Assembly (NCBI RefSeq): GCF_019649055.1
Contig: NW_026570607.1
Span: forward strand, 1-30,675
DNA from: Paramacrobiotus metropolitanus
Lineage: Eukaryota > Tardigrada > Eutardigrada > Parachela > Macrobiotidae
Length of the DNA stretch: 30,675 bases
Direction: 5' to 3'
Shown here: positions 346-24,365 of the stretch, piece after piece
Layout: every line of letters starts with the position of its first letter
Position numbering within the stretch: position 1 is the first letter of the stretch
Translations under genes and position numbers: made by a program
The notes under the pieces: model-generated
What the model saw: only the letters and a program-made list of their open reading frames with translations
What the model was told of the DNA's origin: nothing
The model's database searches: none

Positions 346-730
346 TGCCTCTGGGGGGATGCCGAGCTCCTGTGAGGCTGGACACACTCCCGAATCCACG
401 AAAACGACGGTCGCCGGTGTCTGTGCGTGCTCAAGAACATCGAATTCTCTTAATCCATTTTATCACATCAATTCCGTAAAGGCACAATTCTGTTTAATAC
501 AATGTGAAATAAAGAGATCCAATTATAAAAATACTATCAAATCATTAGGAACAGATCAACAGTAACAGATCAACAAAAGTATTAATCAAATTGTAGACTA
601 GGATCCTCCATTTCTGACTCGCAAAGGTCACAGGTCCTGTCCACCGTTTTCCGCACTTGGCCCATTCCGCTCTGTTGAGCAATCCTGCGCATCCATAATG
701 CGACTTTCATCACAATCCGCTTGAGAATCA

Positions 731-1092
731 GGTGCGTATCAAGTACGACTTAGGAATACTGCTTCAATCTTTGGAATATGGTGCGTATCATTCGTACGAC
801 TTCAAAATGAAATCCAATAAAGGTCATGGAGGGACGTCAATGAAGACAAGCGTAGTTCGCTTCCTCCCTAGTAAAGGTCATCCTTTGTTGAGATGATCCG
901 TTGAGATGTGCGACTGTTTTGGGTTAATGGTCCCAAAGGTCATGCGACTTGAATTCCGATACGGTGACTCTGTTGGGCAATTGATGATCCCAAAGGTCAT
1001 CCCACTCGTCAAAACTTCCATTAAAGGTCATGGAGGAACTTAGCCGATTTTCTGCGGCTTTCAAGCACTTCTTCGCTTGCCTCCCTGGTAAA
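731..1092. repeat. Imperfect direct repeats in the 3' untranslated region
   Basis: Two repeat pairs are visible. GTGCGTATCA followed by a GTACGACTT core occurs at about 731 and again at about 782. A longer pair of roughly 75 bases starts at about 811 and about 1017. Each copy begins AAAGGTCATGGAGG and ends with a CGCTTGCCTCCCTGGTAAA-like stretch; the first copy reads TCGCTTCCTCCCTAGTAAA. The octamer AAAGGTCA starts both long copies. Its local spread may therefore partly reflect duplication of larger units. Confidence 0.6.
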
Positions 1093-1147
1093 ACTTGCAG
1101 TTTGACCTTTCCGTCGCACATCCAACTTCAGTATGCCTCGAGCGGCC

Positions 1148-1585
1148 AGAGTGCCGGCAAGTTTACCGTAGCATCTCTGATGGGGCCGGCTAGTTACCGC
1201 ATTGAGTGTACCCCATGAAATTTCCACATTTAATCTTTTACTCTTGTTCGCCGCTTGTGGCTAACATTACTACGAGAAATCCGGCTTGGTTACCGTAGTT
1301 TTTCTCGTTTTAATTCCGACACTGAATCGCCTAAAAAGAGTGCCGGCACAGTTCACCGTAACAACTCTAATGAGGCCGGCTGGTTGCCGCATTAAGTTAA
1401 CCTCATCAATATTCCACCTGTTGTCTTTCTCTTTTTCGCCGCTTGTGGCCCCAGTTCGTATTCAAGAGATCCGGCTTGATTACCGTAGTTTCTCTTGTCA
1501 ATTTATAACACTGAGTCGCTTAGAGAGGAGGGCCGGCTAACTGCCGTAACTACTCCCTTGGGGCCGGCTTTATAGACCGAATCAA
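1148..1585 (-). repeat. Tandem array of about eight related stem-loops
   Basis: Imperfect units repeat with a period near 190 bases (GAGTGCCGGC at 1149 and 1338, a shorter unit at 1528). Each unit contains hairpins that share a core: CCGGC, 5-7 bases, then ACCGTA or GCCGCA/GCCGTA on the plus strand. The outer stems vary. Examples are 1148-1178, 1273-1307, 1337-1368, 1369-1393, 1463-1497, 1527-1556 and 1558-1585. On the element's RNA the core reads TACGGY...GCCGG and can form an inner CGGY/GCCG stem. Two homologous hairpins keep a 7-bp outer stem despite sequence change: CGAGAAA/TTTCTCG (1273-1307) and CAAGAGA/TCTCTTG (1463-1497). That is compensatory evidence for a real RNA fold. Confidence 0.75.
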
Positions 1586-1759
1586 TTTCAACCCCAATAG
1601 ATATTCCACATGATTTCTTTTAGGCAATTCTGTGCTATAAACGCTGCAAACAACAAATACACAAATACAATTAATGTTAACCTGTCAAATGTCACGCCCT
1701 TTATACAACACTGTTTTTCATTTTTGTGACGTACCGACAAATGCCGTAGACGTCCTTTC

Positions 1760-1789
1760 AATAGTGTGATCCTAAAGGTCAACACTATT
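1760..1789 (-). promoter_or_regulatory. Stem-loop holding the last stop codon
   Basis: AATAGTGT (1760-1767) pairs perfectly with ACACTATT (1782-1789) around a 14-base loop. The loop contains one AAAGGTCA octamer (1774-1781). The TAG stop of the last reading frame (1785-1787) lies in the stem. Whether it affects termination or 3' processing is unknown. Confidence 0.5.
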
Positions 1790-3641
1790 CCATTTCGTTT
1801 GAATCGCCCTCGCCATCTCTCGGCGGGCGTTTCTTAGCGCTTTCCGGTTGGTTTCGATCGGAAGTTCGGTCAACTGGTTCCGTCGAGTCAACTTCCATGA
1901 CCTTTGTCGGGTCGACTTCGCGCTGGCCACGACCTTTACCTTGGCGACTTCGCTTAACCGCCTCAAGTCGATGGCGTGCGTCATTTTCTTCGAGTCGCAG
2001 TCTTCGGTTATCAGGGTCTTCCGCCAATCGACGCTGCACGTCGGCGAGATTATCCCGCAGCTGTTGGTTTCGGATACCGCGTCGTCCCATCTGGTTAGGC
2101 GCACGGTCCGGGCGACGGTCACTTTTCTTCGCTAAGAATTCATCAATGTAGGTTTCGATTCCGTCCACCGGTTCAACGTAGTCACTTCCCAGAGAATCTT
2201 TGATCTTATTAATCCTTTCCTCTACTTGGGATGCGTGGCGCTGTGTCAAGTTACCCTTTTCCATTCGTGTCTTACACTTTTTCAGCGCCTTTCGAGCTGT
2301 GTGCGCTATGCTGATATGTTCCATCGGTTGTCCCAATTTAGCGACATGAGCTCGGAAGAACGGTGGAATGTCGTCCTTCATAGTATTAGACACCAATTGA
2401 TTCTGTGTCTTATAATGTACCAGTCTCGCGGCAAAGACCTTTTGCCCCATCCTTTTTGCGGCATAGTCCTTAGGATCCACCTGTAGTCCTATCGATGCCC
2501 TTGCTGCAAGCAACTTGAAAGCTGGATTCACATGTCGTAAAACGAACTGAGCCACGTATTCTTGTCGTTCGGGATAGTCTCTGTAATAGAACTGTGTCAT
2601 CCCGATTGGGTCAGTTGTATCCAGCGGTACATCCAGTAAACTTAAATCCACCAAACTGTGTAGCCCATTCCGTCGGATAGGGAGATAACAGTCCCGTACT
2701 GAATCGCGGTGGATAAATAACCGACGGAAAAGTCCTTGTTCCACTCCTTGTTTAATCTCTCTCGCATAACCCGAGTCTAGTAGGAATTGGCTCAACTGTC
2801 TCAGAATTGTGCCAATTTTGTTGGCTTCAACCGAATCCGGCTCAAGTCCAAAGTATCGACAAATTTCGACCGTTTGTTCATCAATATCAGTCGTCTTGTA
2901 TTCCATGTCGATACTTTCTGGTTGTCGGTTATTAAATCTGGAGTTTAATCGCTGGTCACCTTGGCGACGATTATCTGGTTCGCCTTGACCTTCCGGTTCA
3001 CGTCGGTCTGCTGATACTGGCTGCGACGGTTCACGTCGGTCTGCTGATGCTGGCTGCGACGGTTCATCCCTCATTGATGAAACCGGTTGAAGGTCACTAT
3101 CCAAGATCACATTTCGTCGGTGAGTCACATTCTCTTGAGACGTGGTTTCGACAACTGAGCCAGTGCCTTCCATCGCGTCATCCTCTTGTACGGCACTCAC
3201 AATTGGATCCACAACGTGAACCACTGACTCCACCCGCTGATACTTTGGGGGTGAATCTTCCCGTTCAGTGCTTGATGACCTTTTACTTGCGCCCGAGTCA
3301 AAGGTCGCATAAAATGCGGCTCTCTGTTGCCATCTCTTATCCTGTGGGTCAGGCGTTCGATTTCGCGTATGTTCACGTCTTTTATCCCATGACCTTTCGG
3401 GTGTTGACATCCTGACGTTACGATTCCGGAATGCGACTCCCATCGGCACCTGATGCCCTTGCTTTTCAGGCTCTGTACGGAATGTCTCCGCACGCCGTTT
3501 TTCTTCACGTTCTCTCGTCGCCGCCAAAATCTTTGCCGTATCGATTTTCCTTTGGATACTCATTTCTGTAACTTCGTCTCCATGGCGCACCCATCCTCTT
3601 CCGCCACGGTAATCTCTATCGCGAGAACGTTCGCGTGACCT
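1785..3641 (-). CDS. Last accessory protein, main part (unrecognised)
   Basis: This frame runs to a TAG at 1785. It is probably the C-terminal part of one protein that begins at 4558 and is broken by single-base shifts near 4252 and 3641-3644. The part near 3641 continues an arginine/serine-rich tract (RSRERSRDRD) into RGG-like residues. A charged, disordered stretch of about 200 residues follows, with two near-identical SADRREPSQP-type repeats around 3000-3060. A more compact domain of about 250 residues starts near the motif VEICRYFGL, with the segments YYRDYPERQEYVAQF and FVLRHVNPAFKLL. The tail is basic and coiled. There is no signal peptide, membrane span or catalytic motif I know. The open frame extends to 3851, but the part above 3641 reads as a shadow of the neighbouring frame. 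An RNA- or chromatin-associated role is inference from composition only. Confidence 0.7.
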   Translation of the reverse strand, partial: RSRERSRDRDYRGGRGWVRHGDEVTEMSIQRKIDTAKILAATREREEKRRAETFRTEPEKQGHQVPMGVAFRNRNVRMSTPERSWDKRREHTRNRTPDPQDKRWQQRAAFYATFDSGASKRSSSTEREDSPPKYQRVESVVHVVDPIVSAVQEDDAMEGTGSVVETTSQENVTHRRNVILDSDLQPVSSMRDEPSQPASADRREPSQPVSADRREPEGQGEPDNRRQGDQRLNSRFNNRQPESIDMEYKTTDIDEQTVEICRYFGLEPDSVEANKIGTILRQLSQFLLDSGYAREIKQGVEQGLFRRLFIHRDSVRDCYLPIRRNGLHSLVDLSLLDVPLDTTDPIGMTQFYYRDYPERQEYVAQFVLRHVNPAFKLLAARASIGLQVDPKDYAAKRMGQKVFAARLVHYKTQNQLVSNTMKDDIPPFFRAHVAKLGQPMEHISIAHTARKALKKCKTRMEKGNLTQRHASQVEERINKIKDSLGSDYVEPVDGIETYIDEFLAKKSDRRPDRAPNQMGRRGIRNQQLRDNLADVQRRLAEDPDNRRLRLEENDARHRLEAVKRSRQGKGRGQREVDPTKVMEVDSTEPVDRTSDRNQPESAKKRPPRDGEGDSNEME

Positions 3642-4254
3642 TTTCGTTGCAGTAGTCACGTGTCCTTTCACGAGAGTGTTCGCGTGACCTTTCTCTCTGT
3701 CGTTCAGAAGTTCGCTCATATTCTCGTGAATGTCCGCGTGACCTTTCTCTATGCGGGGGCGACCGTGGTCGTATAAAGCCTTCGTCCCGTTTAAAATTTC
3801 TGAATGCTTGCAGCACATCGCTTTCGGTTCGGCGAGATTTACGTAGGTCATCCATACGTCTTTCGACTTCCTTCTTTATGTAGGGTGCCGGCGCGAACCC
3901 GTCTTGAAGTCGTTTCTTCTCCCGCAACAGCATTTTGAATACCTCGTCTGACATGGCAGCTGGATCTTTCGTTAACGTTTCAATTTGTATGATAAGTGAC
4001 TGTCGTACAAGTTGCATTTCGTCTTCGTTAAGGCTGGCCATGCCCGTAGGTGCAACTAAACTCGATGTGCTGGGCAGCCCCTCTCGTGCAGCCTGTTCAC
4101 TTGCTCTCTTATTTTCCGCATTAATTTTCGCGCGGATTTCGTCTTCCATCTGCTGAGCTCGCATCTTCGCTTGGTCTTCTTCAAACTTCTTCCGATATGC
4201 GTCTGTTTGTGGACACTTCAACGGCTCCAAGGTGTCATCCCAACCAGGTTCATT
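3616..4254 (-). CDS. Last accessory protein, middle part with RS-rich tract
   Basis: The segment is lysine/glutamate-rich and helical at first (for example the stretch around KKFEEDQAKMRAQQMEDE). It ends in an arginine-serine tract with repeats such as RERSRGHSREYER and RERSREHSRERTRD, like the RS domains of splicing factors. The frame is joined to its neighbours by apparent +1 breaks. One is near 4252, where the previous frame stops at 4250. The other is at the A4 run 3641-3644, where dropping one base would keep the RS pattern going. Three octamer sites (3636, 3685, 3739) fall in the RS-coding part, and AAAGGTCA itself encodes part of the ERS repeats there. Start codon unknown, since it seems to be internal to a longer protein. 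Confidence 0.65.
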   Translation of the reverse strand, partial: NEPGWDDTLEPLKCPQTDAYRKKFEEDQAKMRAQQMEDEIRAKINAENKRASEQAAREGLPSTSSLVAPTGMASLNEDEMQLVRQSLIIQIETLTKDPAAMSDEVFKMLLREKKRLQDGFAPAPYIKKEVERRMDDLRKSRRTESDVLQAFRNFKRDEGFIRPRSPPHRERSRGHSREYERTSERQRERSREHSRERTRDYCNEKVTRTFSR

Positions 4255-4558
4255 GTTCCGGATCGCTTCGATAACGATCTTCGAATAGCATTCGCTCTTC
4301 TACTGGGATGCTGCCGTAATTCCTTGCGCTATGAGATTTCGAAACGTCCAAGTTCCCACGTTTAGCTTCCGAGACTCCAACAAGTGAGACGGTATGTGGG
4401 TCTTCCAGCTTGTGAATGCAAGTGTAGCAAGGGAATTTCTTATCAACCTTTTTGTTGTTCCTTAAGCAGTCCGGACACTTCGGATTATAGCCCGTAAACT
4501 GATCGATGTCTGCCGCCGTTCCTGAACGTTTAGGAGTGGCTTGACCTTTTTGTGCCAT
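4250..4558 (-). CDS. Last accessory protein, N-terminal part with CxxC pairs
   Basis: It starts at an ATG (4558-4556) after a 310-base spacer, so it is a plausible independent start. The 102-residue frame contains CPDC and, about 16 residues later, CYTC, a zinc-ribbon-like arrangement. The rest is polar, with no other recognisable fold. The frame stops at 4250 within an apparent single-base break, and the reading continues in the next frame (3616-4254), where another KCP appears. One octamer (4542-4549) lies near the start and encodes the KGQ at residues 4-6. The zinc-binding idea rests only on cysteine spacing. Confidence 0.65.
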   Translation of the reverse strand: MAQKGQATPKRSGTAADIDQFTGYNPKCPDCLRNNKKVDKKFPCYTCIHKLEDPHTVSLVGVSEAKRGNLDVSKSHSARNYGSIPVEERMLFEDRYRSDPEQ

Positions 4559-4868
4559 CTTTTTTCTTCAATCTGCAATTATAAAATAATCCATCATAGT
4601 AACCTTTCCACGTTAATCCTTTCCATTCCTATCCGTTATCAAGGCTTTCTATCATTTTTACGCCTATCCGTTACTGAGCTGAGACTTTCCTAGCTCCTGC
4701 TGGCTTTTCTATCACTGTAACGTGGTGACCTTTCTCACGTTATCAGCACTCTCTGACTACTGTGACCTTTTCTATTAGTCCTAGTACTGCTTTCAAGCTG
4801 ACCTTTCCTAACACTTTTCTCTTTCGTTTTAAACTGTTTTATGCTTTTTCTGTAATATGCAGGGTTCA
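4559..4868 (-). other. Non-coding spacer between accessory frames
   Basis: I see no protein here. The spacer carries three octamers on the coding strand (4726, 4763, 4799). It also carries related strings such as GTAACCTTTCC (about 4600) and several pyrimidine-rich near-matches on the plus strand. It is the only clearly non-coding stretch where the octamer lies on the same strand as in the genes. It could hold an internal promoter or a splice site for the last protein, but nothing specific is visible. Confidence 0.5.
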
Positions 4869-4887
4869 TTACTCGCTGCATATTACA
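4851..4887 (-). promoter_or_regulatory. 12-bp stem-loop with stop codons in the loop
   Basis: TGTAATATGCAG (4851-4862) and CTGCATATTACA (4876-4887) are perfectly complementary around a 13-base loop. The TAA that ends the small upstream frame (4871-4869), followed at once by TGA, lies in the loop. This fits a translational or processing signal at an ORF end, as at 1760-1789 and 18480-18509. Confidence 0.55.
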
Positions 4888-5078
4888 CTCATCCCGTTTA
4901 CTCCGGATTCCTTCGCCGATGGTTTATACGGCTTGAAATCAATTCGACCATCTGGGTTAAGATGAAGCACTTCGTCCGCGATCAAGGCTTCAACGGCATT
5001 CTTAATCCACTCTTTATCGCTTTCAATATTCAGCTCTCCCAATTCATGAATTGACGGCCATGAAGTTCGAAAGGTCAT
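4869..5078 (-). CDS. Small accessory protein, 69 residues
   Basis: It starts at an ATG that overlaps the preceding TGA stop (ATGA, 5078-5075), an arrangement typical of termination-reinitiation coupling. The protein has a helical middle (around EWIKNAVEALIADEV) followed by a short hairpin-like stretch (HLNPDGRIDFKPYKP), which resembles a small winged-helix unit. The preceding protein ends in a similar pattern, so the two may be related, but this is weak. The octamer (5070-5077, TGACCTTT in the coding sense) spans the stop/start overlap and supplies residues 2-3. No known family recognised. Confidence 0.6.
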   Translation of the reverse strand: MTFRTSWPSIHELGELNIESDKEWIKNAVEALIADEVLHLNPDGRIDFKPYKPSAKESGVNGMSVICSE

Positions 5079-5671
5079 TCCATGACGCCCCCATTGGTAC
5101 CGCCAATGGCGTCCAGAGCCACATCTGTGATGGCTATCTTCCAGGCCTCCAGTTCCATTTTAAGTCTGGGCATTCGTTCCGTGCCCTGTTTCGGAAGGTA
5201 GTAGACGACTTTGTTGTCCTTGTTATATTTACATCCCAACTTTCCTTCCTTATAAGCTCGTTTCAAGACTCGTTCAGTCATGTTAAGTGACGACCTTCCG
5301 TTTGAATTTATTGCCACTTGTCTCTTCAGATCTGTACCAAGCATCTCTTTTTCTCGGATGATCTGGAGCGCGTTCTGGACTTCGTTCCATGTACGATTAT
5401 TCACGTCCAATGCCGGCCCTAACATGTAATCTGTAGCCTCCTTTGCCGGTGTACCGCTACTTTTCTGGGAGGATGTCGAGTCCGTTGGGTCAGCCGTCGC
5501 TGTCTCGTCGATCCTCAGCTTTGCCAGTGATCCTGATGATGACCCCGCCGATTTCGGTTCAACTGTTTTCTTTTCCTCTTGTGGCGTAGTCTCTTGACCT
5601 TTTAGATCGCCGACCGACTTGGATCGTTCCTTCTCAAAGACCTCCTTTAATGGTATGAACAGTGATTTATG
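5075..5671 (-). CDS. Accessory protein with winged-helix-like C-terminus
   Basis: This frame appears to continue the one at 5672-5936 after a single-base break in the T4/A4 run 5672-5675. The first half is polar and disordered, rich in S, T, E and K. The last 100 residues are more ordered: helices around NEVQNALQIIREKEML and TERVLKRAYKEGK, then a likely beta hairpin around NKVVYYLPKQG. This arrangement is reminiscent of winged-helix DNA-binding domains. That is an inference from pattern, with no family match. It ends at TGA 5077-5075, overlapping the next ATG. A perfect 7-bp stem-loop (5091-5109) lies 12 bases upstream of that overlap. Confidence 0.65.
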   Translation of the reverse strand, partial: HKSLFIPLKEVFEKERSKSVGDLKGQETTPQEEKKTVEPKSAGSSSGSLAKLRIDETATADPTDSTSSQKSSGTPAKEATDYMLGPALDVNNRTWNEVQNALQIIREKEMLGTDLKRQVAINSNGRSSLNMTERVLKRAYKEGKLGCKYNKDNKVVYYLPKQGTERMPRLKMELEAWKIAITDVALDAIGGTNGGVME

Positions 5672-5936
5672 AAAACACCTGTCGCGCCGAATCCGCTTCA
5701 GCTTCTGCCGCTGCCTTATCCATCGGGAGCATGACCTTTTCTTTCTCCCGTTTGTCTGAAGCCTCATGACCTTTCGGTTGAACTTCTGCGGTAGTTTCAG
5801 ATGTCTTCGGACCTTTCGACTGTTCGTCTTTTTCTGTCGTAAGTCCAGAAGGAGCCGTTATAGTAGCGTCGTCGTCGCTTTCCGATTCCGAATCCATTGG
5901 GCCTTTTGTCTTCGATGAAACTGTGACCTTTTCCAT
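5672..5936 (-). CDS. N-terminal part of the winged-helix-like accessory protein
   Basis: It starts at ATG 5936-5934 inside the 3' end of the preceding large frame (overlap to 5858). Translation begins MEKVT, where KVT is encoded by an octamer (5924-5931). The segment is acidic and low in complexity (SESESDDDATI) and contains another octamer-encoded KGH. The frame terminates just past an A/T run at 5672-5675, and the sense continues one base out of phase in 5075-5671. An alternative is that the large upstream protein shifts into this frame. The ATG makes a separate start more likely. Confidence 0.55.
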
Positions 5937-8900
5937 ATCCGACTGTCGGACATATTACAGTGGATCTGTCTTTCCGGTGGTATTAGACCAACTCTCGTGT
6001 ATCGGATCGGGTGTCCTTTATGTGCGTTTGTCGTGGCAAGGACGTTCTGTTTAATTAACTTTGGCAGTACGCGTTCGGTAGCCGTGTCGATCTCCTTTAT
6101 CATCCCGTTCCCATCGTTCCAAACTGCGTTGATGTATTGGCTGATCCGGTGACTCGTTGACCCTAATGGGCTTGTCATTCCCGCGATTGCCCTTTCTACT
6201 CGCATTGGGACCGCTTCATTCGGAGTTGTCAGCGCTTTATCCGAACTGGCTGGTCTGAACAACTTGGCCCCATACGAAAAACTCGGGTGCTTCTGTATAA
6301 GTTTTCCTGCGTTCCGCGCGAATTCCAATACGACGTCGAACTTTTGTTTAGTGAAGCTACGATGTTGTTTCTTCAAATACGTCTTCAGGCCTGCTTTAAA
6401 TTTGGATGTCACCGATGCCGTTCTTATTCGTGTGAAATTCTTTTCAGCTCCGTTATACGCTTTGATTACTTCATCGACCGTGTTCAAATCATCATCATCG
6501 GGACCATCAAATTCTTCGTCTGAGGTGAAGTCCAGTTCACTCTCTCCATCTGGTTCAGTGTAACTAACCGTCGCTAATGCATCGATTTTCGTGACTGTCT
6601 TGCCCTTTCCTTTGGTCTTAACGGGTTCGCTCTTTGCTTTTTTCCCTTTATCCAGAGCTTCCGCTAAGCTTCTTGGTTCAGTGGTTCTTGATCGTGTCGT
6701 TTTCGAGTCCGTGTGTGACCTCGCACTAACCGTCGAAGTGCTTGGAAGGCTCACTTCCGATGCCTCCGATTCACGCGACGTCTCCCGTTTCGCTTTTTCG
6801 CGAATCTGTTTGTCCTTGCGCTCCTTTGGCGTGGATGCGGAAATGACAATAGGGACAATTTGTTTCACTGCTATGACCTTTCCTTTGGGCTTTAACGGTT
6901 CTGACGTAGCCGAATTAATAACTTTCTTTGAAGTCGTAGGTGTCGATGACCTTTCCTCAACTTCGCCGACTGACTCGTCCAATATCTCAACATCATGCGA
7001 CGCTGGTTCATCTCTTTTCTTCTTCCCGGTGCTTGTGCTATCGCTTTCGTCACCGCTCTTCTTCTTCTTATCTTCTTCCTCCTGTCGTTTCTTCTTATCT
7101 TCTTCCTCCCGTCGTTTCTTGAGAAAATCGCCTTTCTTAACCTTGTCACGGTTCATGGCCTCTTCCAATCTGGGCGCTTTTCTCGGTTTGACTTTTGAGG
7201 GCTTGACCTTTAAGGGCTTTTTATGCTTATCGGCCGTTTCTTCGTCTGAGCCTTCTTCCTCAGGTGGGTCCTCGTCTTCCGACTCTGGTTCGTCGTCACC
7301 AGGTGGTTCATCACACTGAAGGTGCTCATGACTTCCTTGGGCAATCTCAAGTACTCTTTGTAGCGAACGTCTGGCCCCTCCTGTTTCAGTTACATTTGCC
7401 GACGTGCCCTGCGCCTCTTCCGTCTCTCCGGCTCCGCCTTCTTGTGCCGGGGGATGAATTTCCAAGTGTCTTGTCTCTTTCGGAGATCCCTGTGAGGCGA
7501 CCTCCCACAAAGGGTTCTTCTTAGCGTCGTAAAATACCGTTTTATACGTTCCATCTTCCATTCGTCTTGTGAGTCGGAAATGTGCTCCATCGATCTCCAC
7601 TCGATGCCGCAACATGCTGATGAGTGTACTTGCTTGAACCACGGCATCTTTTCGGTCGCTTTCAGGTATCAGATCCCATAGTTGGTCAATAGCTGCCTGA
7701 TTCGCATTTCGGGCGCTCTCTTCTGATACATCCCATGGGGCATATGGGACTGGGTCTCCTGTTATTGGGTCAACTATCACCGCAGTTATGGTTTCCGTAG
7801 CTTCTCCATTGTCAGCGAAAAGTCTGAGGGTGACCTTTCTGCTTGTCGCCTCTGTATACCTCGGGACCGACTCATAATCATCTGACGATCGTTTCTTCGG
7901 GTCTGGATCCGCCGTTGGTTTTGAGCGAGTTCTCTCCTTGATCAACAGTTTGCCGTCCGTTGTGTATGTATATGCCAAGTGGTCATCATCTGTGCCCACT
8001 TTGATACGGATCCATGCATCTTCTTCGGTTGCAACTTTAGATACCACGTGTTTCATCATCTGAACGATAACTCTTGGGTTATGACGTTCTTCTGGGGGAA
8101 TAAACTGTAGCGCCTCATTGACTAACGTTTTTGACTCTTTCCCAATGGCATCCTTAACTGACCTATCCGCGAGGGGATTATACGAGTCGATCTCTTTGTT
8201 CGTTTTCTTATCGACTATTCGTGCAGTGACCTTTCGTTCTTTATGATCTTCCCCAGTGTACTTGGCCGTGAAACTTCTACACTTCGGGAATCGAATCTGA
8301 CCTTCTGTTCCTTTCGGCGTGGGTGGTACACTCTTTCTACCCACTGGAATCGGGGCCTGTGGCTTTGCCGGCTCAGCTGGTGTTGCTTTGCTTTCTGTGG
8401 GCTTCTTTGTTCGCTGCCCTTTCTTATCAGTTTCTTTTGGGCTTGTCGTCGGTGATCTCACTCTTTTTCCACTCTTCGTGGTGCCACTGGATGGTTCTGT
8501 GACCGAACTAGTACGTCCACGTCCTGATCCTGCAACCGAGCTGGCCCGTGACCTTTCTGCTCGTTCCGTTAATACGGCATCAATCTTCTGCTTTGTGGCC
8601 AAAAGGTCCTCGTCCGTCATTTCATCAACCGGGGCATCTTTTTCAGCTCTGGGTTTAGATGGTCCCGCGACGCTGGTAGGATGCATCTGTCTTGTTTCCG
8701 GGAACACTTTAAGATACCTAAGGATCTTTTCGACGATCGAAGGCCATGGCCTACCATTTAGCGACGGGTGGTATTGCCACATCGACGCAACTTTTATCGC
8801 GTATTCCTGCGCTCTTTTTTCGATCAGTTTTGTCTTTTCCTTCAGGGCGATATGACATGGTTTAATAACGGCTTCCAGGCTGATTAACTTTCCGTACCAT

Positions 8901-9046
8901 GCGTGCTCGTCTTCAACTCGCATGTGAATTCTATAAAGTTCGCGGCATTTCCGATTAAATTCTCGGATAGCTTCCAAGTCGTTTTCCGTCAGTTTGTCCT
9001 CCTTATTCGAATCATATTTAGGCTTGCGTCGTCCTCTCTCAAATCC
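5858..9046 (-). CDS. Large charged accessory protein with duplicated domain
   Basis: The largest extra protein downstream of integrase has more than 1000 residues. The frame is already sensible upstream of the first near-start at 8977, so it probably continues the protein from the 9083-9597 region after breaks. Order: an N-terminal helical domain of about 110 residues (8977-8650, with WYGKLISLEAVIKP); a low-complexity S/T/K/P stretch; two similar domains of about 100 residues near 8270-7930 and 7850-7480, each starting with RKVT and V(T)A-IVD and containing an IPxxxR motif; a highly acidic and then K/E-rich disordered region (7480-6480, including DKKKRQEEEDKKKKS); and a C-terminal helical domain of about 190 residues (6480-5900). 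No signal peptide, membrane span or enzyme motif is visible. A nuclear or capsid-associated role would be a guess. Confidence 0.75.
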   Translation of the reverse strand, partial: GFERGRRKPKYDSNKEDKLTENDLEAIREFNRKCRELYRIHMRVEDEHAWYGKLISLEAVIKPCHIALKEKTKLIEKRAQEYAIKVASMWQYHPSLNGRPWPSIVEKILRYLKVFPETRQMHPTSVAGPSKPRAEKDAPVDEMTDEDLLATKQKIDAVLTERAERSRASSVAGSGRGRTSSVTEPSSGTTKSGKRVRSPTTSPKETDKKGQRTKKPTESKATPAEPAKPQAPIPVGRKSVPPTPKGTEGQIRFPKCRSFTAKYTGEDHKERKVTARIVDKKTNKEIDSYNPLADRSVKDAIGKESKTLVNEALQFIPPEERHNPRVIVQMMKHVVSKVATEEDAWIRIKVGTDDDHLAYTYTTDGKLLIKERTRSKPTADPDPKKRSSDDYESVPRYTEATSRKVTLRLFADNGEATETITAVIVDPITGDPVPYAPWDVSEESARNANQAAIDQLWDLIPESDRKDAVVQASTLISMLRHRVEIDGAHFRLTRRMEDGTYKTVFYDAKKNPLWEVASQGSPKETRHLEIHPPAQEGGAGETEEAQGTSANVTETGGARRSLQRVLEIAQGSHEHLQCDEPPGDDEPESEDEDPPEEEGSDEETADKHKKPLKVKPSKVKPRKAPRLEEAMNRDKVKKGDFLKKRREEEDKKKRQEEEDKKKKSGDESDSTSTGKKKRDEPASHDVEILDESVGEVEERSSTPTTSKKVINSATSEPLKPKGKVIAVKQIVPIVISASTPKERKDKQIREKAKRETSRESEASEVSLPSTSTVSARSHTDSKTTRSRTTEPRSLAEALDKGKKAKSEPVKTKGKGKTVTKIDALATVSYTEPDGESELDFTSDEEFDGPDDDDLNTVDEVIKAYNGAEKNFTRIRTASVTSKFKAGLKTYLKKQHRSFTKQKFDVVLEFARNAGKLIQKHPSFSYGAKLFRPASSDKALTTPNEAVPMRVERAIAGMTSPLGSTSHRISQYINAVWNDGNGMIKEIDTATERVLPKLIKQNVLATTNAHKGHPIRYTRVGLIPPERQIHCNMSDSRIWKRSQFHRRQKAQWIRNRKATTTLL

Positions 9047-9597: not shown

Positions 9598-9658
9598 TTG
9601 TCGTTAATTGCTTTCGCTATATCACGGCCCAATTGTTCGGCTTTTGATTTGACCGCTT

Positions 9659-15560: not shown

Positions 15561-15701
15561 TCAACTATTCGTTTCCAAAACCCGTAACCTTTCGCTCTTT
15601 TTATCCTTCCCCACTTTAGCCGTCTTTATTTCCAGTGCCTCTGGTACTGGGATAGCTTTTTCAACACCTTTTTCTGTGTCTCCTTGCTTACAGTCATTCA
15701 T
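15561..15701 (-). CDS. Short protease-polymerase bridging frame
   Basis: An ATG (15701-15699) overlaps the protease stop as ATGA, and the frame runs 46 codons to a TGA at 15563-15561. It contains another copy of the IPVPEA repeat seen in the protease frame, so it is genuine coding sequence. It is in the same frame as the polymerase, separated from it only by the TGA. Between about 15588 and 15500 a different frame looks more protein-like, so a pair of compensating single-base indels is more likely than readthrough. A strong hairpin (15702-15739) sits directly upstream. Confidence 0.5.
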   Translation of the reverse strand: MNDCKQGDTEKGVEKAIPVPEALEIKTAKVGKDKKSERLRVLETNS

Positions 15702-17518
15702 GCGATCATACTTCTCCCGTCCGGGAGAAATATGATCGCCTCATCGGTATCTGGCGCAAACGGTTCCTTTTTCTTTTCGTTAACTTCTTTGACCTTTCCA
15801 CTTTCACTTTTCTTCTCCGGTGCCTCTGGTACCGGGATTATCCGTTGGCTAATCTCGTTGGGCTGCACTCTCGTCATTCCCGGTGCCTCTGGTACTGGGA
15901 TGACCTTTTCTCTTCCCTTTTGTGTCGGTATTGTCCGATTTAATGTGTTTTCGATCTCCTGCTGAATCATTTGCAGCTGCTCAAATGGTAACAAATCTTT
16001 TCGCGTAACTTTTTTCTTTTCGTTTCCCGGTGCCTCTGGTACTGGGATTAGCGTTTTATTAACCGTTTGAAAATTTCCCGTCTGTTTTACAAGTTCGGTG
16101 ACCTTTCCGACTTGAACTTTGGCGACTGGTTTGGGGTCATCTTCTTTCTCTTCTTCGCCTTCATTATCCATCAGTACGAACTTCTTCTCTAAGAAGTCGA
16201 ATCCCAGTAAGACTTGTACGTCGTCGCACTTCGGCCGGACGTAGAAGGAATGTTCGCTTGTCTTCTTTCGTAAGGTCACTGGTGCTACGCAGTAATGCGT
16301 CACCAGGAATCCTGACGTTCCGCTAATTCCGTTTATTTTCACCAGTCTATCTGGTGGCAATGGGAGCATATGAAGTCCATTCTTCTCGCAAAACGGTTTG
16401 CTGATCAGCGACGTCTCAGCGCCGGTGTCCAACATTGCGTTGACCTTTATGTCTCCCACTTTCACTTCATGTGTGTATGCTTCAATTCTCTTGGGCAATT
16501 TTCCGTTTTGAATCTTCAAGGTGTGAATCTTACATTTCACAGGAATAAGTGATACTGGTCCCGGATCCATATCGGGAAAGCACTTGTCCTTTGCTGGAGT
16601 GCTATGACCTTTCAGTATCTCGCTCAGCTTATCAATCCTATGTGGAACGTTAGTCCGAACATCGTAATATTTTCGCGGCTTTTCTTTATTTGTTCGCTTC
16701 TCTGTAGCCATTTTATCACCGGTGACCTTTTCCACGTTCTGCACTTGCTCATTTGCTTTTGTGCTATCCATGTGACCTTTAGTCACTTCATTTATCGTCT
16801 GATGGATCAGTTCCTCTTTGCGATTTTCATTTCGTTTATCTCTCAACTTCTCAATGACTTCACTTGTTATTTGGTCCGCTCGCTTCAGTTCGTCTTCTTC
16901 GCTATCTTTCATCTCATCTGGTGACCTTTCATATGTAACCATGTCATATCCCTTTTCGGTCATCCATTCGATCACTCTTGCAGACACTTCATTGTTCGTT
17001 TTCGTCGGGTCAATTTGCGAAGACATCCCGTCTGTTCGGGCTGGTGACTTGTCATTGGCATCCTTTTGCAGTGCCTTGTGATAAGTCCCGTGACCTTTCA
17101 ACTGCGCCACTCTGTTGCGTTTGCGCCATCTCATTTGACCGTCCTTTTGTTCATTTTGCGCTAAGTCCTGTGACCTTTCGTTGCGCTTCATGACAAATCC
17201 GCCACCTGTCAGCTTTTGTATGGGGACTTTTTCTCCATAATTCGGCGGTTTATCCTGTGGTGGAGCATTACGTGAATGATTCCAGTCAGCGAATGTCTTC
17301 TTATATTCCTCTGGATTGAATACTGGGACTGGGTTCGGTGACCCTTGCGCTGGTTTCCCGGTAACCAACTCTTCTAGTCGCTTTCTTTCACATTGCGTTC
17401 GCAACTGTTGCATGTCCCAGTAGTCCTCTTGTGACATTCTCGCTTTCTGCTTTGCCTTCGGCGTTACGGGTATCCACATCCCGTGATTGCCATTCGGTCT
17501 GTAGGCCACTTTTGCCAC
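15698..17518 (-). CDS. Retropepsin-containing protein
   Basis: Aspartic protease of the retroviral type. The active site AMLDTGAETSLIS lies at about 16440-16400 (near residue 360), and LLGFDFL about 75 residues later corresponds to the conserved ILG region. The 350-residue N-terminal half is charged and disordered. The C-terminal tail has three IPVPEAP repeats near 16040, 15900 and 15840, and a fourth continues in the next frame. The frame overlaps the preceding linker frame by about 95 bases in the -1 phase. It is open from about 17559, and GTG 17518 and an ATG at residue 14 are possible starts. It is therefore probably translated by a -1 shift or by reinitiation. At least ten octamers lie within. 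Confidence 0.88.
   Translation of the reverse strand: MAKVAYRPNGNHGMWIPVTPKAKQKARMSQEDYWDMQQLRTQCERKRLEELVTGKPAQGSPNPVPVFNPEEYKKTFADWNHSRNAPPQDKPPNYGEKVPIQKLTGGGFVMKRNERSQDLAQNEQKDGQMRWRKRNRVAQLKGHGTYHKALQKDANDKSPARTDGMSSQIDPTKTNNEVSARVIEWMTEKGYDMVTYERSPDEMKDSEEDELKRADQITSEVIEKLRDKRNENRKEELIHQTINEVTKGHMDSTKANEQVQNVEKVTGDKMATEKRTNKEKPRKYYDVRTNVPHRIDKLSEILKGHSTPAKDKCFPDMDPGPVSLIPVKCKIHTLKIQNGKLPKRIEAYTHEVKVGDIKVNAMLDTGAETSLISKPFCEKNGLHMLPLPPDRLVKINGISGTSGFLVTHYCVAPVTLRKKTSEHSFYVRPKCDDVQVLLGFDFLEKKFVLMDNEGEEEKEDDPKPVAKVQVGKVTELVKQTGNFQTVNKTLIPVPEAPGNEKKKVTRKDLLPFEQLQMIQQEIENTLNRTIPTQKGREKVIPVPEAPGMTRVQPNEISQRIIPVPEAPEKKSESGKVKEVNEKKKEPFAPDTDEAIIFLPDGRSMIA
15702..15739 (-). promoter_or_regulatory. 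17-bp hairpin at the protease stop
   Basis: Two 17-base arms pair with one mismatch at DNA level (a G-U pair in one RNA sense) around a 4-base loop. The hairpin ends one base before the ATGA stop/start overlap (15701-15698). Its position and strength suggest a translational control element. No canonical slippery heptamer precedes it within the open -1 window, so reinitiation is the better guess. Confidence 0.6.
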
Positions 17519-18515
17519 TTTTCCTTCTGTTGCAGCGTTATTGCATCCACAAGTGAGTCATCGGAGTTCTGTTGTGCCGTTTCGCCATTCTTTTGCTGCG
17601 CTGTTCGCAGTGTCAAGTCTGTTTCTTGACCTTTTAACACGACGCTATCGCCGTGACCTTTCGCATTCGCACTCGCCCCTTGACCTTTAACTTGGACTTT
17701 TCCAACAGAAGGTGACCTTTTATCTTTACTAATAACGGTGATATTCTGCTTAATCCATTCTTGCCTTATTCGCTTCTCTTCTTCGTCTTCTGAACAATTC
17801 CAAAACTTTGGCTTTGGCTCCCCGTAACAATCGCAACTTGGCTCCTTCGCCTTATCGTTTTCTGCCAAAAATTTTCGGAATTTCGCGTGTTGTTCATTTT
17901 CCTCTTGCGCAGTATCGTTCTGCGGTGGTGATTTTTGGTCGTTCGACTTGCCATTTATCTGTTTCCGGAACCATTCGTGGTGCATTTCCACTTCTTCTGC
18001 GGTATCAGTTTGCGGTTTCTTTTGGTTTAACAGCGCTTGTCGAATCTTGGCATTACGTAATGCACGACGTTCAGCTAACACTTTCTCGCTGCAATACGGT
18101 GACCTTTCATTTTGCTGCACTTTTTGCAGTGTCGCGCTACCGTCACGACAATTCCCACTCGCAGTACCATTCTGCGGTGACCTTTGGTCCCGTTGCACGT
18201 TTCCACTCGCAGTACCATTCTGCGGTGACCTTTGATTCTGTGACGGTATCCCCATAACCGTTCCATTTCCTTTTTGTGATGACGGCATCCATATAGCCGT
18301 CTCTCTTTGCTGTGGCGGCATCCATCTAGCCGTTTCTTGTGGTTGCGGCGTCCATATAGCCGGTCCATTTTGCTTTTTCGCTGACGGCATCCATATAGCC
18401 GTCGCAGTGGTCACATTCACTGCAGTACCATTCTGCAGTGGTGACCTTTCCCTTTTATCCGGTGGTTTAGGGTCGGGTCGATCAGTAGGCTCACCGGTGC
18501 CTACTGATCTTGCCC
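17464..18515 (-). CDS. Repetitive linker protein fused to Gag by -1 frameshift
   Basis: The frame is open without interruption from the slippery site at the end of gag through to a TAA at 17464. Its first near-start (GTG 18420) is not needed if frameshifting supplies it. The N-terminal half is repetitive. About five IWMP/IWTP/RWMP units alternate with Q/K/E linkers (18400-18240), then two copies of RSPQNGTASGN (about 18235-18150). The octamer encodes the QRS of each of these copies. The remainder is hydrophilic, with a CDCYGEPKPKFWNC stretch, KGQ and KGH octamer products, and no recognised domain. A 5-bp hairpin ACGGG/CCCGT just before the stop and a 95-base overlap with the protease frame mark the next junction. 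Confidence 0.75.
18418..18440 (-). repeat. 8-bp inverted repeat in the linker frame
   Basis: CACTGCAG (18418-18425) and CTGCAGTG (18433-18440) are perfectly complementary with a 7-base loop, about 40 bases downstream of the frameshift hairpin. It might contribute to a larger fold there. Confidence 0.4.
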
Positions 18516-18522
18516 GTTTCCC
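18480..18522 (-). promoter_or_regulatory. -1 ribosomal frameshift signal at the end of gag
   Basis: All parts of a classical signal are present. The slippery heptamer G GGA AAC is in the gag frame at 18522-18516. A 6-base spacer follows (18515-18510). Then comes a perfect 11-bp hairpin, GATCAGTAGGC/GCCTACTGATC, with an 8-base loop (18509-18480). The gag stop TAG (18503-18501) is inside the stem. The -1 frame is open through this point into the linker frame. G GGA AAC is a known retroviral gag-pro slippery site. Function is inferred, but the arrangement is very unlikely by chance. Confidence 0.85.
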
Positions 18523-21500
18523 TGAACCGGCGCTCCACCTTGTTGTACGCCTTGCACATTTGCTTGTTGTTGTCCGATATCGTTTGCCGGGTTAGGATTC
18601 TGTCCGCCACCGTTGTTGTACTGGCCACCACCCTGTTGGTAGTTGCCTTGGCCGCCTCCATTGTTCTGGCCTCCTCTGAAATTTCCGCGGCCATAGCCTC
18701 TGTTCCTTCCTCTGAAGCCGCCGCGGCCGAAGCCACCGCCGCGATAGCCGCCGCCTTGGCCGCCCCCATTTCCATTTCCATAGTTCCCGTTACCTTGCTG
18801 ATTCTGAAAGTTCGCTTTCGCCTGGTACCATTGCGTGATCAGGTCATACCCATTTGCGACTGCTTGGCGCCAACCACCGAGCCCGCGCAGTCGTTGCCAC
18901 TCGTTGAAGGCAAACAGGTTTGGGTTCTGTTCCGGTGGTGTATTGGCGAATTTGCATCCCTGGGTCTGGTGGTTGCCATACATACAGTACTGGCACATCT
19001 GCACATTGTTCGCCACCCATCCGTCAATCATCTGGAACTTAAACTCAGTTCGTGACCCTTGGTTTTGCTGTTGATTCCCTCTGAAGTTCCCTTGACCTTG
19101 ACCTTGTCCCTGATTCTGGAAGTTCCCCTGACCTCCATTCCAATTTCCATTTCCGTATCCATTTCCGCCAAAGTTTCCGTTACCCCCACCTTGTTGTGGT
19201 AACCCGACATTCATAGGGACCATATTCTGTGGTGCAGGTGGGGCCACATTCTGGGGAGCCACATTCTGGGCTACCGGTCTCACTTGAGCTGCTGCCTGTA
19301 TCGCCGCCACCATCGCATATGTTATCGGTTGTCCCGTCTGACTGTCGATAAAGGTCACCTTTTCCGTGACCTCTCTGACCGGAGTCTCCACACGGTATTC
19401 GACTGGTTGCTGGGGTGGTGCAGCTGCCATTCTCTGTGGCGGCACATTTTCGACTTGCCCTTGGCGGATGGTCACGTATTCCTGATTACGTTGACCTTTA
19501 GGCGCCTTATATTTCTCTTCGCCGGTGGCCCAATGTCGGAAGAAGTCCTTCACGTCCGTTGGCGTCTTGCACTTTTGTATCCGCAATGCTTTGTAGAGTT
19601 CGTTATCCCCTCTACATCCTTCAATTAGGAAACCCACTGCTTGTTTCTCTGTGATGATCCGTTTTGCTTTGAATCGCATCATCGCCTGGTAATACTGATC
19701 AAGCGATTCCTTTCCGAGTTCGAATTTTCTTGCATAGGCTTCACGTAAGCCTAAGACTTCTTCGTCTCTATCGCCATATTCATCCTTGAATTTATCCATC
19801 CATTCAGTTATTGAGTATTCGATTCCGTCTTCTGCTGCGATGTCCTTTTCACCTTCGAACCAAGTTTTGGCAGGACCTTTCACCGCACTAGCAATCTCAA
19901 TCATAATTTGGTCGTCCGTTAGCTGGTAGGTTCTTTGGGTTTCCTTTACTAGTCGTGTCCAGCCACTCACTGTGTCACGACTGCCGTCAAAGGTCATGAG
20001 TGGTGTTTTCCTGGCCATCGAGTTGAGTGCTTTTGTCAATTGCACCGCTGTATTTTCTGCCCTCTGGTCATCGTCTTCTTCGCTACTTGCATCATCACTT
20101 TGATTTCGTTTCGCTTTTCCATAACGGGATTTCCTTGGACGCTCCTGCCGGCTGGAGGGTCTGTCCCGTCGCCCTTCATCAATGAACACGTTTGTTTCAA
20201 AGTGCGAGGGAAATTGTGAAGGGTCACCTCGACTCATATGCGGGTTACTTTCCGAAGGTGGCTCTTTGTCTTCTTTGCCCTTTTCTCCTTCTCTTTCATT
20301 TTTAACACTTCCCTTACCGGTGCCGGTTCGTAGCGGCATCTCAAAGTGGAAGCTTTTGCCCGTGCCCGTTTCATGCGCCTTGCTATAACTGGGCGGCGGT
20401 GACTCCACTGTTGCTGTTCTGACTCCATATTGCAGCAGTTGTTCGTCTTTGTGTTTATTCGACATGTTGAGCGCCTTATTTTCGTCTTCAAGGCGACGGA
20501 CTTTCAACTGGAATTCCTCTTTTTCCGTTTTCAAATTCTGATTCTCCTCGTTGACCTTTAGCATGTGCTGATGGAGTTGGAAGGTCTTCTCCTGGATGAC
20601 TTTTTCAGTATCATTCTCCATCCTCTTAATGTGTTCCGCCAACTGGGTCACATCCCTTTCCAACGTCGTGTATTCCTCAGCTGCCGCTTTCAGCTGGTTT
20701 TTTGTACGGGTGACCTCATCTTCCCTCGTCATTGCCGTTTGGGTCATATCGATCAGCTCCGTGTTGAGTCTGATGATCTCCTGTGTTTTCTGATGTGCCG
20801 TTTGTTGCCATTCTTTATCTTTCAGTTCAAGCACCGTGACCTTTTCATCCAAGAGGTGTGCCTCATGTTCCCACCTCGCGCCTCGTTCTGCAATTGTCTT
20901 GGCGGCTTCCTTCAACTCTTTGATCTCATCGGTGACCTTTCTGTTGTCCTCCTTCAACACCTTATTCTCTTGCATCATCTGTCTTATTTCGTTATTCAAC
21001 CGTACACCTTCGGTGGCTGTTTGATCTCGCAAGTCCTTTGCCACCTGAGCGGCTTCATCAGCCCTTCTCTGGTGATCGTATGACTCCTTCTGGAGGGTCT
21101 CGATATTCTCGTCACGGAGCTTCAGATCATTCCTGAGCTTGAAGACTTCAGTAGTGTTTGTCAACAACCGCTGAGTAGCATCGGCGAGTTTGGTTGCGTA
21201 TTCATCTCTTTTCGTTTCGGCTTCAGTGACCTTTAGTTTCAGTGAGTCACATTCGTCCTTCAGTTCCGCTAAGTGTCGTGACCTTTCCGCTGTTTCTTCG
21301 GACATACTTTCGTTAAGGTCACTGACTGCAAGATGACCTTCCATTTCTCTGTCATCCACCATCTTCAAGTATTCTTCCGCGAGTTCTCTTTGACGTTCGT
21401 ATTTGATTTTCCATTCGTCCGCCGCGCTCTCTAAGTCAACCTGTTGTTGTTCCAATACGTATATTCGGGCTTCCAGCGACGACAGTTTTTCCCGATTTTC

Positions 21501-22295
21501 TCTCGTTCGTTTCGTTGCCTGACTTTCCTTGGCCTCGAGTTCGTCTTCCAACTCTCTCACACGAGTCCTCAAAGTCGTTGTGGGACTGTTCGGTGATGGC
21601 GATCTAACATTGATGACCTTTCCCATTTGTGTCCGTTCAATAAGGTGCTCGGGTATGTCCTTGAATGGTGTCATCCCTTCAACACGGTCAGCTTCCTTCA
21701 TCGCAGTCTGGAAGGACATATTCATCGTCGCTTCATCATCCGTGAAGTATGATTCATTCGATTCATCTGAGACCATTGGAGTTGCCCAAAGGTCATCGCC
21801 TGCGGTTTTATCGATCAGTGAAAGGTCATCCAGTCCCAGTTCAACGAGTTCTTCTTCGGTGACCTTTGTCTTTTCCATTTCCATTTGAGCCAGGTTCACG
21901 TTTTTATCCTGCTCATTCATTCCACTGGTGGTAGCATCCGACTGTGATGCTCCAACTGATTCCGCTCCTCTTGCTGTGGGTTTATCCTCCCCGGTGACCT
22001 TTGTCTGGTTCATCGGATCACTTCCCGCCGTAGACGCGGGAGTGTGCTTCTGGTCGTCGCTTGAACTTTCCTGATTGGCGACCGCCTCGAGCGCCTTCTG
22101 ATAAGTGCTATCAGAGCCTCGTGAATCCTTCTTCTCGAATGCCTTGGGCGCTCGATTATTCCGCTCATGTCCAACTGGACGTGAGTACGGGTACAAATCT
22201 TTTTTGTACGGATTTGGTGCACCTTGCTGTGAGCTTCGGGAGCTTTTGCTTCCCTGACTGCTGTTGGATGTCGGTTCCTCTTGGTCTTTGTCCAT
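18501..22295 (-). CDS. gag: Gag polyprotein with coiled coil, capsid and nucleocapsid regions
   Basis: The start at ATG 22295 is chosen because the frame above it opens only with GTG codons in a GT-rich tract. The protein has about 1264 residues, several times a typical gypsy Gag. Order: a disordered, polar N-terminus; a long coiled coil of about 400 residues (21580-20450; repeated charged heptads); a low-complexity charged region; a retrotransposon gag/capsid-like domain (about 20000-19500, with FDGSRDTVSGW, FEGEKD and FFRHWATGEEKY); P/Q-rich sequence; a CCHC zinc knuckle CQYCMYGNHQTQGC (about 18996-18955); and a G/N/R-rich RGG tail (18800-18560). The knuckle and RGG tail would bind the genomic RNA. 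The coiled coil probably adds assembly contacts. It ends in the frameshift signal. Confidence 0.9.
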   Translation of the reverse strand: MDKDQEEPTSNSSQGSKSSRSSQQGAPNPYKKDLYPYSRPVGHERNNRAPKAFEKKDSRGSDSTYQKALEAVANQESSSDDQKHTPASTAGSDPMNQTKVTGEDKPTARGAESVGASQSDATTSGMNEQDKNVNLAQMEMEKTKVTEEELVELGLDDLSLIDKTAGDDLWATPMVSDESNESYFTDDEATMNMSFQTAMKEADRVEGMTPFKDIPEHLIERTQMGKVINVRSPSPNSPTTTLRTRVRELEDELEAKESQATKRTRENREKLSSLEARIYVLEQQQVDLESAADEWKIKYERQRELAEEYLKMVDDREMEGHLAVSDLNESMSEETAERSRHLAELKDECDSLKLKVTEAETKRDEYATKLADATQRLLTNTTEVFKLRNDLKLRDENIETLQKESYDHQRRADEAAQVAKDLRDQTATEGVRLNNEIRQMMQENKVLKEDNRKVTDEIKELKEAAKTIAERGARWEHEAHLLDEKVTVLELKDKEWQQTAHQKTQEIIRLNTELIDMTQTAMTREDEVTRTKNQLKAAAEEYTTLERDVTQLAEHIKRMENDTEKVIQEKTFQLHQHMLKVNEENQNLKTEKEEFQLKVRRLEDENKALNMSNKHKDEQLLQYGVRTATVESPPPSYSKAHETGTGKSFHFEMPLRTGTGKGSVKNEREGEKGKEDKEPPSESNPHMSRGDPSQFPSHFETNVFIDEGRRDRPSSRQERPRKSRYGKAKRNQSDDASSEEDDDQRAENTAVQLTKALNSMARKTPLMTFDGSRDTVSGWTRLVKETQRTYQLTDDQIMIEIASAVKGPAKTWFEGEKDIAAEDGIEYSITEWMDKFKDEYGDRDEEVLGLREAYARKFELGKESLDQYYQAMMRFKAKRIITEKQAVGFLIEGCRGDNELYKALRIQKCKTPTDVKDFFRHWATGEEKYKAPKGQRNQEYVTIRQGQVENVPPQRMAAAPPQQPVEYRVETPVREVTEKVTFIDSQTGQPITYAMVAAIQAAAQVRPVAQNVAPQNVAPPAPQNMVPMNVGLPQQGGGNGNFGGNGYGNGNWNGGQGNFQNQGQGQGQGNFRGNQQQNQGSRTEFKFQMIDGWVANNVQMCQYCMYGNHQTQGCKFANTPPEQNPNLFAFNEWQRLRGLGGWRQAVANGYDLITQWYQAKANFQNQQGNGNYGNGNGGGQGGGYRGGGFGRGGFRGRNRGYGRGNFRGGQNNGGGQGNYQQGGGQYNNGGGQNPNPANDIGQQQANVQGVQQGGAPVQGNGQDQ

Positions 22296-22370
22296 GTTGA
22301 TCGGATAACTTGGACGCTCCTGCCAATTGTTCTCACACACACGTTATTGTATGGTTTATTCAAGTATCCT

Positions 22371-22888
22371 AAAGGTCACTCTGTACCTCCGAAATTTTTC
22401 TAAGTCCTTATTAAAGGTCACTTTTCGACTGAAAAATTTCGACCAAGTCCCGTTTAAAGGTCACTTTTTGATAAAAAAAGTTCGAGAGATTTGCCCTAAA
22501 AGGTCACTTTCGGACAGAACTTCGAAACCGTTCTTACAGTTCAGAACACGTTAACGATTGAATTCCTACAGCTGCTGATATCGCTGTACTACCAATCAAC
22601 TCGATTCAGCTTTATGAAAGGTCACTGTTGATCACTTTCAGATCATAAAGGTCACTAAGATGGGTCAATTTGATCAATTCCAACTTTTTTGGTAAAGGTC
22701 ACTTTTCAAAGTCAAAAGTCAACTTCTAGTCTCAAAGGTCACTTTCCGACTCAACTCAACTCAAAAGGTCACTTTCCAGCTCAATTTGCAAGTTAAAGGT
22801 CAATTTCCAGCTCAATTCTATCAAAGGTCACTTTCTAGCTCGGTTTTGATCAAAGGTCACTTTTCCTTTGTCTGAACTTAAAAGGTCA
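22371..22888 (+). repeat. Thirteen-copy AAAGGTCA array with near-regular spacing
   Basis: Octamers start at 22371, 22413, 22456, 22499, 22617, 22647, 22694, 22734, 22764, 22795, 22823, 22852 and 22881, all on the plus strand (antisense to the element). Steps are 42, 43, 43, 118, 30, 47, 40, 30, 31, 28, 29 and 29 bases, near three or four DNA turns for most. Many copies extend to AAAGGTCACTTT, with pyrimidine/CAGCTCAA-like spacers in the 28-31-base part. This looks like a binding-site array or a minisatellite built on such a site. Confidence 0.85.
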
Positions 22889-23367: not shown

Positions 23368-23454
23368 GTGGCGCTCTACTCCAGTTTGGAGGAGTCTGAT
23401 CTGTCTTTTCCCGTGCGCCCCTTTTGGCGCTTCGGCGCTTCTGCCCCACGGCTT

Positions 23455-24335: not shown

Positions 24336-24365
24336 TGCACTGACTATCAGAGGAACTGTATGGTT

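Follow-up and report, generated by a model that had tools for sequence, protein, structure and literature searches.

We analysed a stretch of 30,675 nt from Paramacrobiotus metropolitanus (Tardigrada; assembly GCF_019649055.1, contig NW_026570607.1, positions 1-30,675, forward strand; hereafter the window), which contains a giant Ty3/gypsy-type retroelement with long terminal repeats (LTRs), and found the octamer AAAGGTCA dispersed along this element. A density of about 4 sites per kb is kept through the genes and leaders of its lineage. Extended by one base to AAAGGTCAH, the word is almost certainly a selected recognition site in double-stranded DNA, because enrichment, conservation, turnover and independence of reading frame and orientation all point to it. 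The best overall explanation, to which we give a probability of about 0.5, is that AAAGGTCAH would be bound along the element by a host nuclear receptor of the NR4A/HR38 type and its chromatin thereby kept open.

The original prediction, made from the letters of the window, put the number of sites at about 95. The exact count is 95, with 63 TGACCTTT and 32 AAAGGTCA on the plus strand from 623 to 22888, and the LTRs (1-345 and 23790-24134) and the DNA at 24135-30675 hold none, as had been stated. The claimed rarity by chance was borne out, for 400 same-letter permutations of 1-24134 average 1.2 occurrences versus 95. When all 8-mers were ranked, as had been proposed, AAAGGTCA was the commonest (95), and the top 8-mer without a common 6-mer was GAAGAAGA (18). 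The proposed codon-preserving shuffle gave the same picture: eight open reading frames (ORFs) hold 59 sites, whereas 1000 synonymous-codon shuffles average 4.3 and never exceed 11. The near-matches mentioned earlier are also in excess, with 53 one-mismatch places against about 24 per permuted motif (1436 over 60 motifs). Dispersal through all the genes holds as well, since every called ORF contains sites; the ten ORF stretches as called contain 66 of the 95, and 29 lie outside. Some of these 29 (e.g. 4542 and 15501) fall in an open frame ahead of the chosen start and are possibly coding. The prediction spoke of one retroelement. The sites do run throughout this element, but it is not single: it belongs to a large family with at least 79 reverse transcriptase (RT) matches, 88-100% identical (79 scored among 1802 candidates), and at least 40 LTR matches (40 scored among 281 candidates). 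Tandem repeats with sites were found only in part of the 5' leader (22732-22863) and in a 15-nt pair at 7188-7219, and a pure tandem-repeat spread of the sites was rejected on this ground.

Ten further elements, partly fetched, contain 788 sites in 195,293 bases (4.03 per kb). Among the 787 sites with full flanks, the base following the site (+1) is C in 447, T in 188, A in 144 and G in 8, whereas G follows other GGTCA words in 100 of 562 cases. The near-absence of G at +1 leads to the consensus AAAGGTCAH, where H is C, T or A. The base at -1 leans to G (321/787), and position 1 of the octamer is A, with C found there only twice among the one-mismatch variants.

The sites are maintained between copies. 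Nine close copies were compared as adjacent pieces, with 15.9-19.8 kb aligned per copy and the remainder uncounted. It was found that sites are intact in 599 of 670 comparisons, or in 596 of 670 if an insertion within a site is taken as a break; per copy, 86-96% of the aligned sites are intact versus 39-71% of non-site 8-mers. For identity by offset and by codon position, the counts also take in a distant relative at C1:202000-222000 on contig C1 (C1:202k). Identity is 0.97-0.99 at the eight octamer positions and 0.85-0.95 in the flanks, with a sharp change at both edges, and each octamer position is constrained. Third codon positions in the eight ORFs are identical in 1217 of 1256 cases (96.9%) in sites versus 34140 of 42360 (80.6%) elsewhere, and in other DNA the counts are 1855/1898 in sites versus 36575/39722 outside. 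Only AAGAAACG (8 occurrences, 44/49) is equally conserved among the 43 8-mers with at least 7 non-site occurrences. In 28 of 389 comparisons, a one-mismatch place has an exact site as its counterpart in a different copy; the figure for 60 permuted motifs is 1.2%.

By region of the element, the sites are conserved as follows: 364/408 for coding sites in sense, 79/87 for reversed coding sites, 68/76 in the 5' leader, 41/42 in the 3' leader, and 39/46 and 8/11 for intergenic sites, with background 8-mers at 0.53-0.68. Divided by reading frame, the sense sites are conserved in 89/96, 137/147 and 138/165 comparisons and the reversed coding sites in 31/33 and 48/54.

These figures bear on two explanations in which the word is not a DNA site. 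In the first, protein-level repeats (ERS, KV, KGH) generate the word through codon bias; sense coding sites do encode KGH/KGQ, xRS and xKV. However, they are spread over three frames (12/20/23), both orientations occur, 29 sites are outside the called ORFs, the codon shuffle yields far fewer sites and the third positions are conserved. A peptide repeat or codon bias as the main cause is thus refuted by the shuffle, the frames and the third positions, and we leave it next to no probability. In the second, the word would be an RNA-level signal for packaging, localisation or splicing control, read as AAAGGUCA, a role that the original prediction had offered as an RNA tag for packaging. The sense strand carries AAAGGTCA at 55 of the 66 ORF sites, as such a signal would have it, but reversed coding sites are conserved equally well and 19 of the 20 leader sites (5' and 3' together) are reversed. 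Because both orientations are conserved, the RNA tag was rejected, and an RNA signal of any of these kinds is very improbable.

Conservation extends to C1:202k, which has 88 sites in 20 kb (pieces L017 and L018). Its proteins share with those of the window 37% of amino acids in Gag, 33% in ORF A, 41-55% in the protease and 60-67% in the RT ORF, and the RT core is 83-87% identical across two aligned parts. The codon alignment spans 10,217 bases at 61.7% identity; in it, C1:202k retains 23 of 45 window sites versus 426 of 9272 (4.6%) other 8-mers, while 17 of the 40 alignable sites of C1:202k have no counterpart in the window. From these shared and private sites it follows that the sites are old, kept and still turning over. 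As they are dispersed and maintained both in the copies and in the distant relative, a binding function of the octamer is very likely, judging from the sequences compared.

Another possibility is that the word builds up and is preserved through a mutational or gene-conversion bias, with no advantage for the element. The word does exceed expectation genome-wide, at 250.7 per Mb versus about 35 per Mb from a third-order Markov model of 40,747 host bases; it is counted 42,562 times (4,042 of them followed by G) versus 15,522 for its reversed control. In the DNA sampled, however, the excess tracks the element lineage. The first ~202 kb of C1 hold 24 sites (11 forward, 13 reverse), or about 119 per Mb, versus about 4,030 per Mb across the pieces from the elements. 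There is none in a small sample of 6 kb, taken from the RT segments of two Ty3-like elements that are unrelated (34-36% identity) and of one RT unmatched to the window proteins. We consider such a bias improbable.

Some host stretches outside the element were also noted. In 8 kb of host DNA at C1:302000-309999 (L037), picked for apparent clustering and dissimilar to the element, there are 13 AAAGGTCA, none followed by G, together with cysteine-rich open frames that we presume to be Ly6-like. C1:563000-569999 (L038) is a host minisatellite with a unit near AAAGGTCATCCACCTTTCTGC, and C1:590000-596999 (L039) is a host repeat with GGGGGACA and ATAATGTC each occurring 21 times in 7 kb.

As for the reader of the site, the octamer exactly matches the NR4A monomer site 5'-AAAGGTCA-3', the NBRE, as the original prediction had recognised; binding by NR4A monomers is described in PMC10419244, and in comparison the present element has 95 sites and shows no close dimer. 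Three NR4A-type exons were found on contig C45 of the host, with 86%, 76% and 67% identity to the query sequence and covering the DNA-binding domain and the C-terminal extension. They include VVRTDSLKGRRGRLPTKPK in that extension, which we take to be the part contacting the 5' A bases of the site. The NBRE is normally present as one or a few sites near promoters. Further host nuclear receptors were matched, presumably FTZ-F1-, COUP-TF- and ERR-like. ERR and FTZ-F1 sites have C rather than A at position 1, and these receptors were rejected as readers because the octamer starts with A although the host has such genes. A zinc-finger receptor gene borne by the element was rejected too, as the ten ORFs scanned gave no zf-C4 match and none of the 63 genome matches listed was on contig C387. 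We put an NR4A-type host receptor as the reader at even odds on this sequence evidence.

The alternative of a reader encoded by the element itself centres on gene E, which lies past the integrase. Gene E, or another element protein, would bind AAAGGTCAH and counteract silencing in the manner of VANC, or compact the complementary DNA (cDNA). Gene E occupies three frames in the window copy and one 913-aa frame in other copies; it has an N-terminal C-X2-C-X12-C-X2-C motif and RS-rich parts, and is full length without a stop in 23 of 55 among the matches listed (50 candidates scored of 827). A homologue with the same four cysteines is present in C1:202k (2e-36), so that gene E is the accessory gene common to the window family and C1:202k, while the part of C1:202k that was fetched shows no ORF B, C or D. 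ORF C is therefore not the common reader unless it was lost there. The concentration of the sites in the element lineage, among the stretches sampled, and the marked +1 rule there (8/787) would also fit a private reader. On the other side, gene E matched no known DNA-binding family, the agreement with the NBRE would be accidental, and the gene is broken in the window copy, though action in trans is possible. Gene E is only a candidate for a VANC-like binder; an element-encoded reader, the main rival of the host receptor, is on the whole rather unlikely. In the RS-rich tail of gene E in C1:202k (L017 1481-2485), coding DNA carries sites every 18-39 nt, which suggests joint evolution of DNA word and protein repeat.

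Returning to the NR4A/HR38-type receptor, it would bind AAAGGTCAH as a monomer, and such dispersed binding over the 24 kb of the provirus, or of its linear cDNA, would keep the chromatin open and transcribed. The outcome would be anti-silencing or licensing over the full length of the element, whose sites are most densely clustered in the 5'-leader array. A function in chromatin or transcription along the length of the element is slightly favoured in our assessment; a promoter-only role leaves the coding sites unexplained and an insulator role would account for no more than the leader cluster. The linear cDNA could also be the target for another purpose: its transport into the nucleus by a nuclear receptor that brings an import signal of its own. 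This predicts sites in double-stranded DNA along the full length in either orientation, as seen, but a few sites would suffice, and we rate it as a small chance.

Several observations weigh against the receptor explanation. Any unrelated protein could read the octamer, and the LTRs are free of it. The NurRE dimer, TGACCTTT-n6-AAAGGTCA, was not seen, as neither the window nor pieces L017-L036 contain sites whose starts are 14 nt apart; binding, if by NR4A, would therefore be monomeric. The closest sites in the window are 24 nt apart, and 0.24% of random placements lack any spacing of 8-23; the nine copies go down to 20 and C1:202k to 15. However, two sites of like orientation are 12 nt apart in element piece L003, so the wide spacing is not strict and is weakened as a footprint rule. 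In host DNA unselected for sites, 8 sites were counted in 40,747 bases versus about 1.4 expected (a small sample), and part of the abundance of the word therefore does not come from the element. The +1 base is G in four of these eight, unlike in the element, and from this small sample we treat the host sites as mostly unrelated background.

The remaining point against it comes from the relatives, on whose keeping of the sites the original prediction depended. The nine close copies and C1:202k do keep them, but in one copy of a sister subfamily the sites look scarce. This copy, C1:685451 (685451-687103, RT 91%), has 3 forward-strand sites in an inferred 24-kb span, where the window has 32 and C1:202k has 25, and its 400-base piece L051 (68% identical) keeps one of five window sites, the counterpart of 14042. 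Counted on contigs up to C177, the sister subfamily comprises this copy and 17 further RT copies, 89-92% identical, without the 5'-leader 19-mer nearby. On these contigs, 34 of 46 RT copies at least 93% identical are within 20 kb of this 19-mer and 0 of 18 copies at most 92% identical are. The absence is only consistent with a site-poor subfamily, because ordinary divergence would erase the 19-mer too. One copy, read on the forward strand only, is weak evidence for such a subfamily; judging by it, the sites are perhaps dispensable or exchangeable.

The features of the element are collected in Table 1, in which PR is the protease and IN the integrase.

Table 1. Coordinates of the element, its genes and its sites in the window
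Feature	Position	Strand	Sites	Remarks
Ty3/gypsy-type LTR element	1..24134	-		~24.1 kb; LTR pair and PR-RT-RNaseH-IN order
All AAAGGTCA sites	623..22888	32 plus, 63 minus	95
3' LTR	1..345	-	0	1/345 mismatch vs 5' LTR
Region upstream of 3' LTR	623..1110	+	7	6 TGACCTTT in sense, 1 AAAGGTCA; starts 623 819 873 935 992 1023 1103
Gene E	1788..4558	-	7	6 in frame 1788-3851, 1 at 4542
ORF D	5078..5767	-	2
ORF C	5861..8977	-	7
ORF B	9086..9562	-	1
Integrase core ORF	9662..11065	-	4	PF00665 2.5e-12; 2 sense, 2 reversed
RT-RNaseH-integrase N-terminal ORF	11091..15449	-	16	PF00078 8.7e-26, PF17917 5.5e-34, PF17921 6.8e-20; 11 sense, 5 reversed
Aspartic protease ORF	15701..17518	-	10	PF13975 3.4e-8
ORF A	17467..18420	-	7
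Gag-like ORF	18504..22340	-	13	CX2CX4HX4C by eye; 9 sense AAAGGTCA, 4 reversed
5' leader	22371..22888	+	13	All TGACCTTT in element sense; partly 29-30 nt tandem array; starts 22371 22413 22456 22499 22617 22647 22694 22734 22764 22795 22823 22852 22881
5' LTR	23790..24134	-	0

The paired LTRs and the domain order place the element in Ty3/gypsy. The contig begins within the 3' LTR or right at its end, and the near-identity of the two LTRs indicates that the insertion is recent. Directly after the LTR, where a primer binding site would be expected beside the 5' LTR, is TGGTAGCAGAGC, which may match the initiator tRNA. A RefSeq protein of Paramacrobiotus metropolitanus matches the pol ORF at 95% identity, and RefSeq protein P0042 is 100% identical to one frame of piece L027 of this genome. 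Relatives of the element in IMG/VR were not confirmed. For ORFs B, C, D and gene E, profile scans gave no known domain over the cut-off. In RefSeq gene models elsewhere in the family, ORFs C and D (in some copies B too) form a single protein of 917-1559 aa. A Linker_histone match was obtained in one of nine such proteins scanned (P0037, 2.4e-4, below the cut-off) and weak ones in two of five segments (0.0039 and 0.066), while profile searches of the PDB gave no support for linker-histone-like domains; short segments of the protein may be winged-helix (linker-histone-like). A 190-nt tandem repeat of 1.8 copies without sites is present in the 3' leader (1148-1495).

When compared with known systems, the closest functional precedent is VANDAL/VANC, the sequence-specific anti-silencing system of Arabidopsis (PMC5735166, PMC10398659). 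There, too, an 8-9 nt motif has accumulated in a single lineage of transposons, forms tandem arrays and turns over family by family. The VANC21 motif YAGTATTAY is in noncoding parts, and the two coding probes tested were without it (PMC5735166), whereas here 66 of 95 sites are in the ORFs of an animal retroelement. Accumulation in one lineage of transposable elements was found in our case as well (with 6 kb of controls), but noncoding-only placement was not; what is new is the element class, the host and the coding placement of an accumulated protein-binding motif. The gypsy insulator of Drosophila, with 12 Su(Hw) sites in 340 bp (PMC2374998), shares a site cluster in the 5' leader, where the present element has 13 AAAGGTCA in 518 nt. 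That insulator is confined to the leader; here the sites run on through the genes. The DNA uptake sequences of Neisseria and Haemophilus are likewise short words dispersed across genes in several frames and kept by a shared reader, although they are bacterial and serve transformation. Giant LTR elements of the plant Ogre type and of planarians resemble the tardigrade element in size (over 20 kb) and extra ORFs, and we know of no dispersed motif in them. Nor are we aware of any retroelement with a selected transcription-factor site scattered over its protein-coding body. Among the titles and abstract openings listed in our literature searches, there was no account of the motif in a retroelement or of the element itself; the terms NBRE, AAAGGTCA and transposable element co-occur in PMC12539977.

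If the receptor explanation is true, the element would be an animal, coding-embedded counterpart of VANDAL/VANC, and how a very long provirus avoids silencing would become testable. If the sister subfamily is indeed site-poor, the sites would have been lost or exchanged in a lineage nearer by RT than C1:202k, and site-rich and apparently site-poor subfamilies in one genome would constitute a natural dose experiment with its own natural control. A DNA word here visibly constrains codons in many genes at once. We tentatively suggest that the 24-kb body, genes included, may be a landing field for one host nuclear receptor (NR4A/HR38), in which the dose of sites, not a promoter, would let the provirus evade silencing; selection on the DNA word would bend codon and even amino-acid choice, and sister lineages might drop it or swap it for another, much like in an arms race.

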